Origin: Halomicrobium zhouii
GTDB lineage: Archaea; Halobacteriota; Halobacteria; Halobacteriales; Haloarculaceae
DNA: 64,000 bases
Direction: 5' to 3'
NCBI RefSeq assembly: GCF_900114435.1
Contig: NZ_FOZK01000001.1
Span: forward strand, 496,001 to 560,000
Made by a program: the position numbers and the translations under genes
The notes under the pieces: generated by a model
What the model was told of the DNA's origin: nothing
Databases searched by the model: none
Seen by the model: only the letters and a program-made list of their open reading frames with translations
In this document: positions 5,048 to 39,437 of the stretch, piece after piece
Layout: each line of letters starts with the position of its first letter
How positions within the stretch are numbered: the first letter of the stretch is position 1

Positions 5048-6355
5048 ATGTTCGGGACCAGCGGAATCAGGGGACCGGTCGGGGACGAGGTCACCGCGTC
5101 GCTCGCGCTCTCGGTCGGCCGGGCGGTCGGCGTCGACGCGGACAGGGTCGTCGTCGGCCGGGACCCGCGCGAGTCGGGCGAGTTCCTCGCAGACGCGCTC
5201 GCGGCCGGCCTGCGCGAGTCGGGCACTGACGTCGTCGACCTGGGGCTGGCGGCCACGCCGACGGTCGGCCGCGCGGTGGCCTGGGAGTCGGCCGACGTCG
5301 GTGTCTCGGTGACGGCCTCCCACAACCCCCCGCAGGACAACGGTATCAAGCTCTGGCAGCCCTCCGGCCAGGCGTTCGACGCCGACCTGCGAGAGCAGAT
5401 TTCGGGGCGCATACGCGAGGAGGCGGCCGAACTGGTCGCCTGGGACGCGGTCGGTGAGCGCCGGGCGGCCGACGCCAGCGAGCGCCACGTCGCCGCCCTG
5501 ACCGACGCCGTGGCCCTGGCCGACCCGCCCGCCGTCGTCGTGGACCTGGGTAACGGCGCCGGCGGGGTGACGGTCGAGGCGCTCACGCGCCTGGGCTGTG
5601 ACGTCGAGACGCTCAACGCCCAGCCCGACGGGTCTTTCCCCGGGCGCCCGAGCGAGCCCACCGCCGAGAACTGCCAGTCGCTGTCGACGCTCGTCGGCTA
5701 CACCGACGCGAGCCTGGGCATCGCCCACGACGGCGACGCCGACCGGCTCCGCGCCGCGAGCGCGGACGGCACCTACCTCTCTGGCGACGAACTACTGGCA
5801 ATCTTCGCGGCGGACGCCGCCGAGCCCGGGGACGCGGTCGCCGTCCCGGTCGACACCAGCCTCGCCGTCGCCGACTACCTCGCCGAGCGCGACGTCGACG
5901 TGACCTACACGCCTGTGGGGGACGTCTACGTCGCCGACGCCGCGAGCGAGCCGGGCGTCGCCTTCGGCGGCGAGCCCAGTGGTGCCTGGATCTGGCCCGA
6001 GGAGACGCTGTGTCCCGACGGCCCGCTCGCGGCCTGCAAGCTCGTCGCGCTCGACGCCGAGCGGTCGCTGGCCGACCGGGTCGCCGACGTGCCGGAGTAC
6101 CCCATTCGCCGGGACAGCGTCGAAGTCGACGACAAGACTGGCGTGATGGAGCGGGTCAGCGCCCGCGTCGCCGACGAGTTCGAGGACGTGTCGACGCTGG
6201 ACGGCGTCCGGGTCGACCTTGGCGACGCGTGGTTCCTCCTCCGGGCCAGCGGGACCCAGCCGCTCGTCCGAATCACGGCCGAGGCACGCGAGCGATCTCG
6301 GGCCGACGACGCCTTCGAACGGGCACGGTCGGTGCTCGACGCGAGCCGGGACTGA
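5048..6355 (+). CDS. glmM: Phosphoglucosamine mutase GlmM
   Basis: Converts glucosamine 6-phosphate to glucosamine 1-phosphate, leading to UDP-GlcNAc for N-glycans and exopolysaccharide. The 435-residue protein starts MFGTSGIRGPVGDEV. It has the catalytic serine loop TASHNPPQDNGIKL near residue 94, the metal loop DGDADR near 229, the sugar-specificity loop FGGEPSGAWIW near 305 and the phosphate loop RASGTQPLVR near 400. The short N-terminal FGTSGIRG form and EPSG loop fit archaeal GlmM rather than the PGM at 344. The stop codon overlaps the first base of an 82-bp palindromic element, so the mRNA would end in, or run into, a long hairpin. Confidence 0.9.
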   Translation: MFGTSGIRGPVGDEVTASLALSVGRAVGVDADRVVVGRDPRESGEFLADALAAGLRESGTDVVDLGLAATPTVGRAVAWESADVGVSVTASHNPPQDNGIKLWQPSGQAFDADLREQISGRIREEAAELVAWDAVGERRAADASERHVAALTDAVALADPPAVVVDLGNGAGGVTVEALTRLGCDVETLNAQPDGSFPGRPSEPTAENCQSLSTLVGYTDASLGIAHDGDADRLRAASADGTYLSGDELLAIFAADAAEPGDAVAVPVDTSLAVADYLAERDVDVTYTPVGDVYVADAASEPGVAFGGEPSGAWIWPEETLCPDGPLAACKLVALDAERSLADRVADVPEYPIRRDSVEVDDKTGVMERVSARVADEFEDVSTLDGVRVDLGDAWFLLRASGTQPLVRITAEARERSRADDAFERARSVLDASRD

Positions 6356-6436
6356 TAGTGGTGGTTGTCAGCCCGTGCCGGCGTTCGACGTGGACGGTAT
6401 CGGCGAACGCCGGTACAAAGTTACAACCACCACTAT
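6355..6436. repeat. 82-bp double-stem palindromic element, copy 1
   Basis: The ends are perfect inverted 14-mers, ATAGTGGTGGTTGT and its complement. A 6/6 internal loop follows, then a second 13-bp stem (positions 21-33 with 50-62 of the element, one G-U pair, containing CCGGCGTTCG) and a 16-base apical loop. The reverse complement of this copy closely matches the equally long element at 36811-36892. It begins on the stop codon of glmM. It could be a MITE-like mobile element, a small structured RNA or a transcription-end signal. Confidence 0.85.
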
Positions 6437-6672
6437 GACGGGTGGCTGCTGGCCGATCAGGCGCCACGGTTGACTGCTGGTCGATGACGCGTGAGGCTGC
6501 TGGCCAGCGAGGCGTGAGTGACAGCGGTGGGAGAAGTGCGCCGCGTCCGTCGACCGCCTCCCACGGTCGCGGGCGGGCGCGGCCCGGCGTTTCTCGTCCG
6601 AGACGGCCACCGACTGACCCCCTGCGGTGTCGGCGGCCGCACGGACCGAGGACGGCGGGCTGTAGTCGTGTG

Positions 6673-18225: not shown

Positions 18226-18585
18226 ACGTCCTGACTAAACGGCCAGTCCAAAAAGGATGGGCCCTGCTGTCAGCCTGCTGTCCGGTACTTTCGACCGTTA
18301 TCCGTCACCGTTCGCCGTATAGCTGGGCCCTCGCTGTGCTCGGCCCCAGCCTGCTCGCGGCTGCCGCCGCTCGCATTTTCGACGGCCCCTCCTCACGGCT
18401 CCCGTTCGGTCGCCGTTCGGATTGCCGGAGGTCTTCGCTTCGCTCAGACCTCCCTACTCCCTACGGTCGGGCCCGTCCTGCTCACGGCTCGCTTCGCTCA
18501 CCGTTCGCTGTATAGCTGGGCCCTCGCTGTGCTCGGCCCCAGCCTATCCGATGCTTTCTAACGCCCGCCCCCCGTTCACGCAGGT
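18226..18585. repeat. Intergenic region with a 48-bp direct repeat of the hairpin family
   Basis: Between the divergent aldo/keto reductase and rubrerythrin genes. The copies 18305-18352 and 18498-18545 differ at one position. Each contains the core TATAGCTGGGCC...GGCCCCAGCCT, an inverted version of the hairpins at 3185-3349 (31 of 36 bases equal to copy 3314-3349). A separate hairpin, GGAGGTCT to AGACCTCC, lies at about 18429-18453. No gene is credible here. Confidence 0.75.
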
Positions 18586-36296: not shown

Positions 36297-36309
36297 GGAT
36301 TACCGGCGA

Positions 36310-36328
36310 TTAGGTCAGCCTAAACAAA
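36310..36328. promoter_or_regulatory. DtxR/IdeR-like iron box before the gluconate-dehydrogenase pair
   Basis: TTAGGTCAGCCTAAACAAA matches the mycobacterial IdeR/DtxR consensus TTAGGTTAGSCTAACCTAA at 16 of 19 positions. It lies 14-32 bases before the ATG at 36296 and overlaps the expected TATA region (TTTGTTTAGG on the gene strand). Iron-dependent repression of the sugar oxidase is inferred. Confidence 0.65.
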
Positions 36329-36484
36329 ACGGTTGTGCTTGTGTGCCGACGGCGCCGGTGGTTCACTAGCCGGGCGACTGGTGCTGGATTTATTTATAAG
36401 GGAAATTCGATATCGGGGGATCTGGGCGCTATATCGAACGATCTCGACGGTCAAACCGATCTGAGTATTCGAGCACCGACCCAC

Positions 36485-36501
36485 ATTCTATATAGCGAAA
36501 T
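36485..36501. repeat. Degenerate copy of the 17-bp palindrome
   Basis: ATTCTATATAGCGAAAT: the right 11 bases are identical to the copy at 25313 and the left arm differs at three positions. Confidence 0.45.
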
Positions 36502-36810
36502 GCAATTTACCGCTCTGTTCGCTCGAAATGTGGAATACACAGAATCTCCCCCAGAGAAGGGTTCTATTGGGAATTCGCGGCAGTTCTGGTCACTTCCAGG
36601 TTGGCTCTAAATACGCCGAGACTCTGCTTCGTCGAACGCTCGACGTCGCGTCGGACGGGCTCGGTCGCTTCGAAGCTCTGAATTGGTACCGAGGAGCAAG
36701 GCGTCGCCGTCCTGAGTCCTGGCCCGCTAACAGGTGGGCTGGTAGCGAATCACGCCCAGGGCGTCCGGGGTGCGGTTCCCGTCCGCGACGTGGGTCACCG
36801 GGCCTGTCTC

Positions 36811-36892
36811 ATAGTGGTGGTTGTAACTTTGTACCGGCGTTCGACGGCATCTGCCGCGTCGAACGCCCGCCCGGGCTTAAAACCACCACTAT
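36811..36892. repeat. 82-bp double-stem palindromic element, copy 2
   Basis: Same length and the same ATAGTGGTGGTT...AACCACCACTAT ends as the copy at 6355-6436, but in opposite orientation: the first 33 bases here match the reverse complement of copy 1 almost without change (through ACTTTGTACCGGCGTTCG). The inner stem GGCGTTCG/CGAACGCC is kept and extended by ACG/CGT. It lies in gene-poor sequence here, so the element is not simply a gene terminator. Confidence 0.85.
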
Positions 36893-37688
36893 CAGTCCAG
36901 AACTGGGGTACGGGCTCGACGCCGATCTCTCCGCGTCGACGATGGGGGTGGTCCTGATTGCGTGCACGCGTGAACGAGAGCGACGAGAGCTCGTGCTCGT
37001 GCCAGTCGATTCCGCCGTCCGAGGGCACCGCAGGGCCGGATTCAACCCTTTAGCCGTTCTCGTTTGTCTGGCAGTCTCGAATTCTCGAGGTCTCGGTCCG
37101 TCGGTTGCCGGAAACCGCTGTCTCTCGAATGTTCGCAGGCCCCAGCTCTAACCGGTCGAATCGGCGGCCCAGTTCTCTCCAGTTGTGCGGAAGCCCAGTC
37201 GAATCTCCTCTGTGGCTTCTAAACCTCCGGAAAGTGTTTCTCGATTCGGTCTATCTCCGTCCCGCGTTCTGCGGTCACGATTTTCTGGTACACCGGGCAG
37301 ATCGCTACGCGATTTCTCTGGGGAGATCGATGTTGTTTGCCCGGAAGTCTATGTGGCGTGTCATATGCTAACATTTTTTAGATTTTAACTGAACGGCACC
37401 TGCACGGCGCCTGGAGGGCGCCGTTCGGGCCACGAACCCCTGCTTCGAGAAGGGATCTGTGGGCTCGGAAACCGCTAGCCGGGGCGGACGAAAGCAATCC
37501 GGGTGCGTGTAGTCGGCGCCGGACGGCACCCCAAACTGCAGACGGCGTATCGTCGGGGTGTGATAGGAGCGGCCCGTCCTCTGCCTGAATTCTGGACGTG
37601 CGCTTCTGTTCGTAGTTCGAGACACGATTCGTCCCTGCGATCCGTCTTCGTCGCCCGATCTGTGTCCGTTTTCGGGCCGCGATCTTCG

Positions 37689-37705
37689 ATTTCGTATCGC
37701 GAAAT
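37689..37705. repeat. Copy of the 17-bp palindrome, one mismatch
   Basis: ATTTCGTATCGCGAAAT, one base different from 25313-25329. The arms ATTTCG and CGAAAT are intact. Confidence 0.65.
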
Positions 37706-38649
37706 GAGATATACCGCGATTCGTCGTGCCGGCTACCTTCTTCGATAATTTGTCGGTAGAGTGCCTCTCGTGCCGAATTCTGGCGGTTGGGGTTGGTGAG
37801 TTATTGCATACCATGGGGCGGCGCATCGTTCGTCGATCGATTCCTGCACCGTCTCTCGTAGTCCAGATTCGGATTTCGAGTCGAGAGTCAGCGCGACGGC
37901 GTGGCGTCGAACTGCGAGTCTCTGGTTCCGGTTCCTCCTCGTTGCACCGCTGTGTTCCCGTCTCGAACCTGGGGTTCAGACGCTTTCCAGCGCTTCTTAG
38001 AGTGGTGCGTCTCGTTCGAGGCTGGATCGGTCCCTGGTTCGTCTATGGCGTTCGTTCGGAAACCTGACCGAGCTTTCACGTTTCGTGTGGGTTGGAGTCG
38101 TGGATCTGTGGAGTAGAATCCGACCGTCGACGTCGTGCACGATCTTCCCCAAGTGGACGGTGCCCTGTTTCGGGGAGCTCACTGGTGTACCTGCCGAGCC
38201 CTTCTCTCGACGGATCCCGCTCGATAACAGTTGTCGCCAGGGCCGATTATAATTCCAAAAATTCAAAGGTAGTTTTAGTCCCATAGCTTAGAAATTTTTA
38301 CCGAGGGGGCTTCTGGGGCCGAAATTATCCGATTCCGTCGAATAGCGGTGACATCAGGCAATAAACTTCATATTGCTATATAGAAATTGGTTGGGTTGGT
38401 TCTACTCGGTTCCAATGCGATAGCTAGAACTGGGCAAGTGTGTTTGAATGACTGATATTGCGAGATGGTATGACCTATCGGATGGGGTTTGGACAGGTAT
38501 GTTTCCGATCGGCTGGTGATGAGTGGGTATTCTTAAGATTTCTCGGGTCTGATGCGGTCGGTACCTCTCTTCCCCGGTCAATACAGATCAATCACTTAGC
38601 GATCGGTGGCTTCCAGGATTGTCGCTGTTAGCACGACGTCAAAGAACTC

Positions 38650-39141
38650 GAAAGCCCTCGGCGCGCTCGGCTCGTGCGAACCCGCTGTGCGCGCTCGTTC
38701 CTCGCGTGCTTACGGGTTCGGACTTCGCCGACCGCACCTCGCCCTTTCAGTCCTCCAGGCTCAGCATCGCTCGCGCCACGGAGGCGCTCGCGATTGACTC
38801 CCCACCCCTCCCCGGTCGCGCCTTGCTCACGGCTGGCGCCGTTCGCGGTGAGGTGGCGCTGACGCGCCACCTCGCGGCGCGACACGCTTCCTGACCGCTA
38901 CGCAACTGCCCGGCCGGGAGCGGCGTTCATGCCGCGACCAGGGGGAGGGCAGGGCTGGGGTGCTGTGCGGGCCTGGAGGATTGAAAGGGCGAGGCGGGCT
39001 CCGGGAACCCGGGCGCAGTAAGCACCGCAGCGGAGTCGTTCGAAAGGCGCTTCGCGCCTTTCGTGATGACGAGAGAGCGAAGCTCTCTCGAACCACGAGG
39101 AGCGCAGCAAGCCCCGGGACCGGAGCGCGCCGAGGGCTTTC
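38650..39141. repeat. About 490-bp inverted-repeat element with nested hairpins
   Basis: The outer ends GAAAGCCCTCGGCGCGCTC (38650-38668) and their exact complement (39123-39141) face each other. An inner pair, CCTCGCCCTTTCAGTCCTCC... at 38737-38760 and its complement at 38971-38994, matches 23 of 24 bases. The centre has further hairpins: GAGGTGGCG/CGCCACCTC near 38854-38873, AAAGGCGCTTCGCGCCTTT near 39041-39060 and GAGAGAGC/GCTCTCTC near 39070-39090. No transposase frame is present. It may be a non-autonomous mobile element or a structural repeat. Confidence 0.75.
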
Positions 39142-39437
39142 TGGGTGTTGGCGGTTTCCTTTCTTCCAGCACCAGACCCACAGAACCACCCACTCAACTC
39201 ACACACGTGCTCAACAGCTGGTCAGATAGCGACCGATTCGAACGAGACTGGTACCGCTGGCCGCCGTGGTACCCGTGCAGATGCTGCCGGGTACTGGGCG
39301 GGTTCGATCGATGGGCGGGTTCGATCGATTGGACGGGGGTCGAGAAGAGACCTCGAATTCGGACCATCGTCGTGGAATGCCGACGGTCCGGAAGTGTTTG
39401 CAAAACTGGTCGCCCTGATCGAGCTGTACCCGAAAGC

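Follow-up and report, generated by a model that had tools for sequence, protein, structure and literature searches.

A short MITE-like inverted-repeat element of haloarchaea found preferentially at gene stop codons

We describe here a short palindromic element that is likely to be a MITE-like transposon, with insertion or survival favoured at stop codons far beyond other harmless sites. About three quarters of the copies in two sister species lie exactly at an in-frame TGA stop, whereas the class of transposase, direct targeting of stops and the value of a tandem stop are inferred. The stretch of DNA that was analysed, hereafter the window, comprises 64,000 nucleotides (bases 496001–560000 of contig C1 in a genome of 4.25 Mb and six contigs) and carries two full copies with the features listed below.

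5048–6355, plus strand: host gene, encoding a full-length phosphoglucomutase/phosphomannomutase-type (PGM/PMM) protein of 435 aa and ending exactly at the insertion of copy 1
6353–6355, plus strand: left target-site duplication of copy 1, TGA, the stop codon of the PGM/PMM gene (the sister genome G063 has a single stop triplet, TAA, there)
6356–6435, plus strand: copy 1 of the element, 80 bp, with terminal inverted repeats TAGTGGTGGTTGTCA / TTACAACCACCACTA; the site is empty in G063
6356–6370, plus strand: outer stem, left arm, pairing with 6421–6435
6376–6390, plus strand: inner stem, left arm, pairing with about 6401–6415
6401–6415, plus strand: inner stem, right arm, pairing with 6376–6390
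6421–6435, plus strand: outer stem, right arm, pairing with 6356–6370
6436–6438, plus strand: right target-site duplication of copy 1, TGA
36809–36811, plus strand: left target-site duplication of copy 2, TCA
36812–36891, minus strand: copy 2 of the element, 80 bp, in the orientation opposite to copy 1; there is no recognisable gene stop at the insertion, and the site is empty in G063
36892–36894, plus strand: right target-site duplication of copy 2, TCA

The initial annotation, made from sequence alone, had described an 82-bp double-stem palindrome present twice in opposite orientation about 30 kb apart. The palindrome itself held, since window positions 6355–6436 form an inverted repeat with two 36-nt arms that are 81% complementary, and its fold lies 5.2–5.4 SD below dinucleotide shuffles on either strand, none of 200 shuffles being equally stable. 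The length held only in part: one base of each 3-bp flanking repeat had been included, and the true extent of copy 1 is 6356–6435 (80 bp). The second copy, inverted relative to the first and ~30 kb away, was confirmed at 36812–36891, but 'present twice' proved to be an undercount genome-wide, as 81 BLAST matches to copy 1 in the 4.25 Mb resolved into 38 loci spread over all six contigs, of which 32 have both ends. The stems had been described correctly to within a base or two, as judged by an alignment of 40 80-mers that places the outer stem at columns 1–15/66–80 and the inner stem at about 21–35/46–60. Both window copies have 15-bp inverted ends (TAGTGGTGGTTGTAA) with 3-bp direct repeats outside them (TGA for copy 1 and TCA for copy 2), and the 12-base end occurs six times in the window with at most one mismatch, against 0.09 expected. 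A chance inverted repeat is ruled out by the shuffles, the end counts and the copy number in the genome.

Across the 40 aligned copies the 15-bp ends are paired in 85–100% of cases in every column, and changes in one outer arm are usually mirrored on the opposite arm, for instance the replacement of G-C by C-G at column 8 in seven copies. The unpaired segment between the two stems is conserved and asymmetric, with GCCC on one side and AAAG on the other. Outside the element, matches to the loop motif GARCRSAGYGAG are in excess across the window (21 against 9 expected, with none of 100 shuffles reaching as many), for example at 18330–18534 and 29832, and form a cluster at 18.3–18.5 kb.

The sister species HArc-gm2 (G063) contains at least 55 copies; these were gathered by a pattern including the TSA flanks, a choice that skews the triplet but leaves the reading frame unbiased. 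Element length varies from 42 to 415 bp with a mode of 80 bp, and no gene lies inside the element. Longer forms measure 137, 165, 194, 251, 308 and 365 bp, the added length being made up of hairpin units, 26 and 31 bp in alternation, whose stems vary, and growth occurs mostly in 57-bp modules. Long copies with such arrays of small hairpins are found outside the window (L105:1112-1476, L104:1121-1428, L142, L012, L033 and others), and their units have stems that are variable but self-complementary and loops that are similar (GAACGGAGTGAG-like). Moreover, a subfamily of 106–118 bp has the same ends and a different core.

The TAGTGGTGG version was found only in its own genome and in HArc-gm2 among 146 genomes of the family, and a scan of 392 genomes of the order yielded just isolated single matches elsewhere. 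The related pattern TSATACTGGTGGYTGTA with flanking TSA, one mismatch being allowed, was present in 64 of the 146 family genomes at 1 to about 160 ends per strand, single matches in some genomes possibly being chance or relics. Related ends across the family read TA[C/G]TGGTGG[C/T]TGTA, and carriers of related elements are Haloarcula rara, H. marina, H. sp. CBA1115 and Halomicrobium plasmids. Copies in genome G022 have a mean divergence of 4.2%. Element ends in the incomplete genome G106 (genus g13; loci L219–L254 and L272–L288) number 167 on one strand and 144 on the opposite one, a very large burst with a smaller share at stop codons and some TAA duplications. No paired element ends were seen in viral contigs, where single-end matches are presumed to be chance. 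Repeats matched by an exact end-pair scan in Kallipyga (L071, L073, L077, L087, L093, L095) and Lancefieldella (L086, L097) were judged to be an unrelated family, because they are iteron-like, with several TAGTGGTGGTTT-like units and no target duplication.

Identical 3-bp flanks border 66 of the 83 two-ended copies of the own genome and HArc-gm2, every one TGA or TCA, and they are direct (TGA/TGA or TCA/TCA) rather than in the inverted combination expected of triplets within a palindrome. In G022, where copies were gathered by end sequence alone, all 32 of 32 have identical flanks (TCA in 16, TGA in 14 and TTA in 2), indicating that the duplication is TNA; overall, identical flanks are only ever TGA, TCA, TTA or TAA. 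Filled/empty polymorphism exists between the two sister species, as seven loci that carry the element in one have an empty, uninterrupted site in the other, where the junction shows just one triplet. The copy 1 site reads GGGAC-TAA-CGG in HArc-gm2 versus GGGAC-TGA-[80 bp]-TGA-CGG in the own genome, and the copy 2 site is likewise empty in G063. The empty sites seen in relatives are proof of insertion with duplication of a 3-bp TNA, from which we infer a MITE-like non-autonomous DNA transposon. The two readings offered initially were a non-coding mobile element and a structured RNA family; the former held, given the many copies, the direct 3-bp duplications and the empty sites. Further copies in this genome and its relatives, as well as target-site duplications, had been proposed as checks, and both were found.

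Three arrangements of element sequence were seen in addition. Copy 2 lies in a gene-poor stretch (window 36300–39400), and the matching stretch of the sister genome has a different element insertion ~100 bp away (G063:C12:434336-434427). In two genomes of genus g3, the stop codon of one gene, probably ribB (DHBP synthase), bears a degraded relic with a single element end (L164:1503; L173, minus strand, around 1514); its presence at the same stop in both indicates that it was inherited and not newly inserted. Two lone element ends enclose a second signal-peptidase-like gene at L051:1079-2025 (C1:151578-152524). One end is at the TGA stop of the first signal-peptidase-like copy and the other at the stop of an orc1/cdc6-like gene, and this arrangement could reflect an element-mediated gene duplication.

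The location of the copies on stop codons had been missed by the initial annotation. Copy 1 begins directly 3' of the TGA of the PGM/PMM gene, whose product contains all four PGM_PMM domains, domain IV ending at residue 425. A simple ORF criterion puts 29 of the 38 own-genome copies, and 42 of the 55 in HArc-gm2, exactly at an in-frame TGA stop, and a codon-usage gene finder placed 68 of the 93 copies of the two sister species at gene stops. Where the duplication has decayed on one side, the copy serving as the stop codon is usually the intact one. Orientation of the element relative to the gene is unbiased (30:26, P = 0.69), though the interior is asymmetric. At the right junction of copy 1 (6434–6438), the element end and the duplication together read TATGA, which creates an ATG overlapping TGA; such a junction would also restore the downstream start in an ATGA stop-start overlap.

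It is also evident that the association is not confined to the two sister species. In G022, 22 of 32 copies are at stops, among them a TAA stop with a TTA duplication, and in G106 the number is 7 of 24. Deposited annotations place the start of one element immediately 3' of the stop annotated for a CPBP protease gene in Haloarcula sp. CBA1115. Of six elements detected across 150 kb of plasmid sequence from Halomicrobium sp. LC1Hm, at least two start immediately 3' of annotated stops (one TGA, one TAA), this being a lower bound because the plasmid annotation is incomplete. Five insertions are near misses, 16–41 nt from a stop, and three of these are beside genes ending in TAG. TAG stops are unusable by an enzyme that duplicates TNA, but the number of near misses is too small to press the point.

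To compare stop codons with other sites, a background of about 230 kb was used (the window and sampled loci, not the whole genome), with genes called by our own script unless annotation was available. Of all TGA/TCA sites, 3.6% are gene stops; among stop and intergenic sites together the share is 11–14%, whether sites are counted equally or weighted by a target motif that was learned from non-stop insertions. Per site, 52 of 145 TGA stops were occupied versus 4 of 406 other 3' non-coding TGA/TCA sites (ratio 36, P = 8e-26), and none of the 62 TGA/TCA sites within 30 nt after a stop carried an insertion. The preferred target pentamer is CTGAG; with this context held fixed, the ratio of stops to other 3' non-coding sites was still 13 (P = 2e-6). 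The motif-weighted and CTGAG-restricted controls rule out the target motif as a full explanation of the stop preference, and since stops are favoured ~36-fold per site (13-fold with CTGAG fixed), avoidance of gene damage is not the explanation either. A test conditioned on each convergent gene gap gave a modest excess (34 observed versus 24.9 expected, P = 8e-5), a weak result because many of the used gaps are so short that stops are nearly the sole sites. These results demonstrate a stop-codon excess in these genomes that is large despite the limited background and our own gene calls. A weaker form of the bias is present in two other genera and includes TAA stops: with sampled loci as background, the ratio was 7 in G022 (P = 7e-7) and, weaker, 5 in G106 (P = 0.002).

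We propose that a transposase supplied in trans, as yet unidentified, would act on the two 15-bp inverted ends. This enzyme would most likely be of the DDE type with a 3-bp TNA duplication, an inference drawn from the symmetry of the ends and the short, fixed duplication. Insertion would take place into a short palindromic target, roughly GAC-TNA-GTC, and would duplicate the TNA. If the TNA is an in-frame TGA or TAA stop, insertion would be seamless, with one of the duplicated triplets still serving as the gene's own stop. As both element ends begin with TAG, a second in-frame stop (TGA-TAG or TAA-TAG) would arise at once in either orientation. A seamless duplication and a backup stop would make the stop codon an ideal site, yet alone they do not explain its preference over other harmless sites.

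Whether stops are targeted directly or insertions there are selectively retained remains unresolved; there is either steering to gene ends or faster loss elsewhere. The G022 copies, just 4.2% divergent and still mostly at stops, favour steering, whereas G106, rich in copies but less biased, points to selection, as on a recent burst. On balance we lean slightly towards integration machinery directed to gene ends or stop codons over a pattern produced by selection after random insertion alone. A bolder reading is that integration is guided to in-frame stops or gene ends, for example by coupling to transcription or translation termination, and that a whole haloarchaeal clan uses stops as safe harbours with a backup TAG at both ends; this we regard as plausible but would not quite favour.

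Among the rival readings, survivorship without any targeting remains possible. Under this reading the element inserts at any TNA, preferably CTNAG, after which copies that fall in genes or promoters are purged and those at stops remain. It fits that duplicating TNA at TGA or TAA necessarily does no harm, that the CTGAG motif is relatively common at gene ends, and that G106, with its very high copy number, has a smaller share at stops. However, other 3' non-coding sites should be as harmless, yet they are used 36 times less often per site (13 times with CTGAG fixed), and 0 of 62 TGA/TCA sites within 30 nt past a stop are used. Moreover, G022 copies diverge by only ~4% on average but are at stops in 22 of 32 cases.

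It is unlikely that the element is instead a domesticated 3'-UTR element whose hairpin acts as a terminator, mRNA stabiliser or insulator and is retained by selection. The high stability of the hairpin, the mirroring of changes between its arms, its location directly 3' of coding regions, at least one copy common to orthologous genes of two species (L025/L116) and the decayed relic common to two genomes of another genus would agree with such a role. Against it, there is no orientation bias (30:26) despite the asymmetric interior, the sister loci tested are empty, mirrored changes are expected of transposon ends too, there is no Rfam family, and a role of this kind gives no reason for exact contact with the stop codon. 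A structured RNA as the main reading failed likewise, as Rfam gave no match near threshold and the unbiased orientation relative to genes (P = 0.69) argues against it. We consider it very unlikely that the element belongs to the REP/RAYT, IS200/IS605-type single-strand or haloarchaeal PATE/SMR classes and is mobilised by an HUH enzyme. A short palindrome in many copies without an ORF would suit this, and the SMRs of Haloquadratum are 80–110 bp long with inverted ends and unknown mobilisation (PMC3119063), but those classes lack a target duplication, whereas TNA is regularly duplicated here, and the target of SMR-A is the palindromes of IS605-type elements, not stop codons (PMC3119063).

An autonomous element with the ends of the MITE-like transposon was not found in G000, G063, G022 or the sampled part of G106, and none of the DDE_Tnp_1 loci of three genomes has element ends. 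As this search for a parent transposon is incomplete, the element is named MITE-like and not a MITE of a named IS. Several candidates were rejected: end pairs of 1052 bp and 810 bp in G106 contain no recognisable transposase and have mismatched flanks, a 2.4-kb insert in G000 at the site orthologous to L117 holds ordinary genes and no transposon, and the lone ends in L164/L173 are shared relics.

Mobile elements survive best when they do no harm to the host, and known safe harbours are tRNA genes, terminators, REP palindromes and the end of glmS. If our reading is true, the stop codon itself serves as a harbour, dozens of times per genome and with termination restored in both orientations, which would be a new solution. 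Should targeting be true, the question is how an integration enzyme could recognise a site defined by reading frame; should selection be responsible instead, there must be an unexpected difference in fitness between having the hairpin at the stop codon and having it a few bases downstream. A practical consequence is caution in annotating haloarchaeal 3'-UTRs and terminators.

To our knowledge, no transposon with stop-codon specificity has been described. No stop-codon-targeting mobile element was found in the open-access full text searched, and 'stop codon' is absent from the text of a review of prokaryotic MITEs (PMC10969869); most subscription papers and ISfinder were not covered, and a prior description is possible. 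Four of five MITE criteria are met, namely a length below about 600 bp with no coding capacity, terminal inverted repeats, target-site duplication, and multiple, mobile copies. The element thus shares with prokaryotic MITEs (PMC10969869) its shortness, lack of an ORF, terminal inverted repeats, target-site duplication, high copy number and related families with differing cores; it differs in that no parent transposon with the same ends was found and in its strong in-frame stop preference. The IS1031 group of the IS5 family and the eukaryotic PIF/Harbinger elements make a 3-bp TNA or TWA duplication, and the 3-bp TNA duplication in a short target is common to them and this element. No transposase of the IS5/IS1031 group could be linked to it, however, as judged from the DDE_Tnp_1 loci of three genomes, and its ends begin with TA[C/G]TGG, unlike the G-rich ends of that group. 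REP/BIME sequences with RAYT transposases are dispersed palindromes often located just after genes, and in this they resemble the element, but REPs do not duplicate their target and differ in the structure of their ends, and the target duplication seen here argues against membership. The SMR-A/B elements of Haloquadratum walsbyi (PMC3119063) are similar in being haloarchaeal, 80–110 bp long, with inverted ends unrelated to known transposons, enigmatic mobilisation and a striking target preference. The SMR criterion of no target-site duplication is not met, the 3-bp duplication being regular; SMRs lack such a duplication and SMR-A is found at IS605-type palindromes (PMC3119063), whereas the present element duplicates TNA and sits at gene stops.
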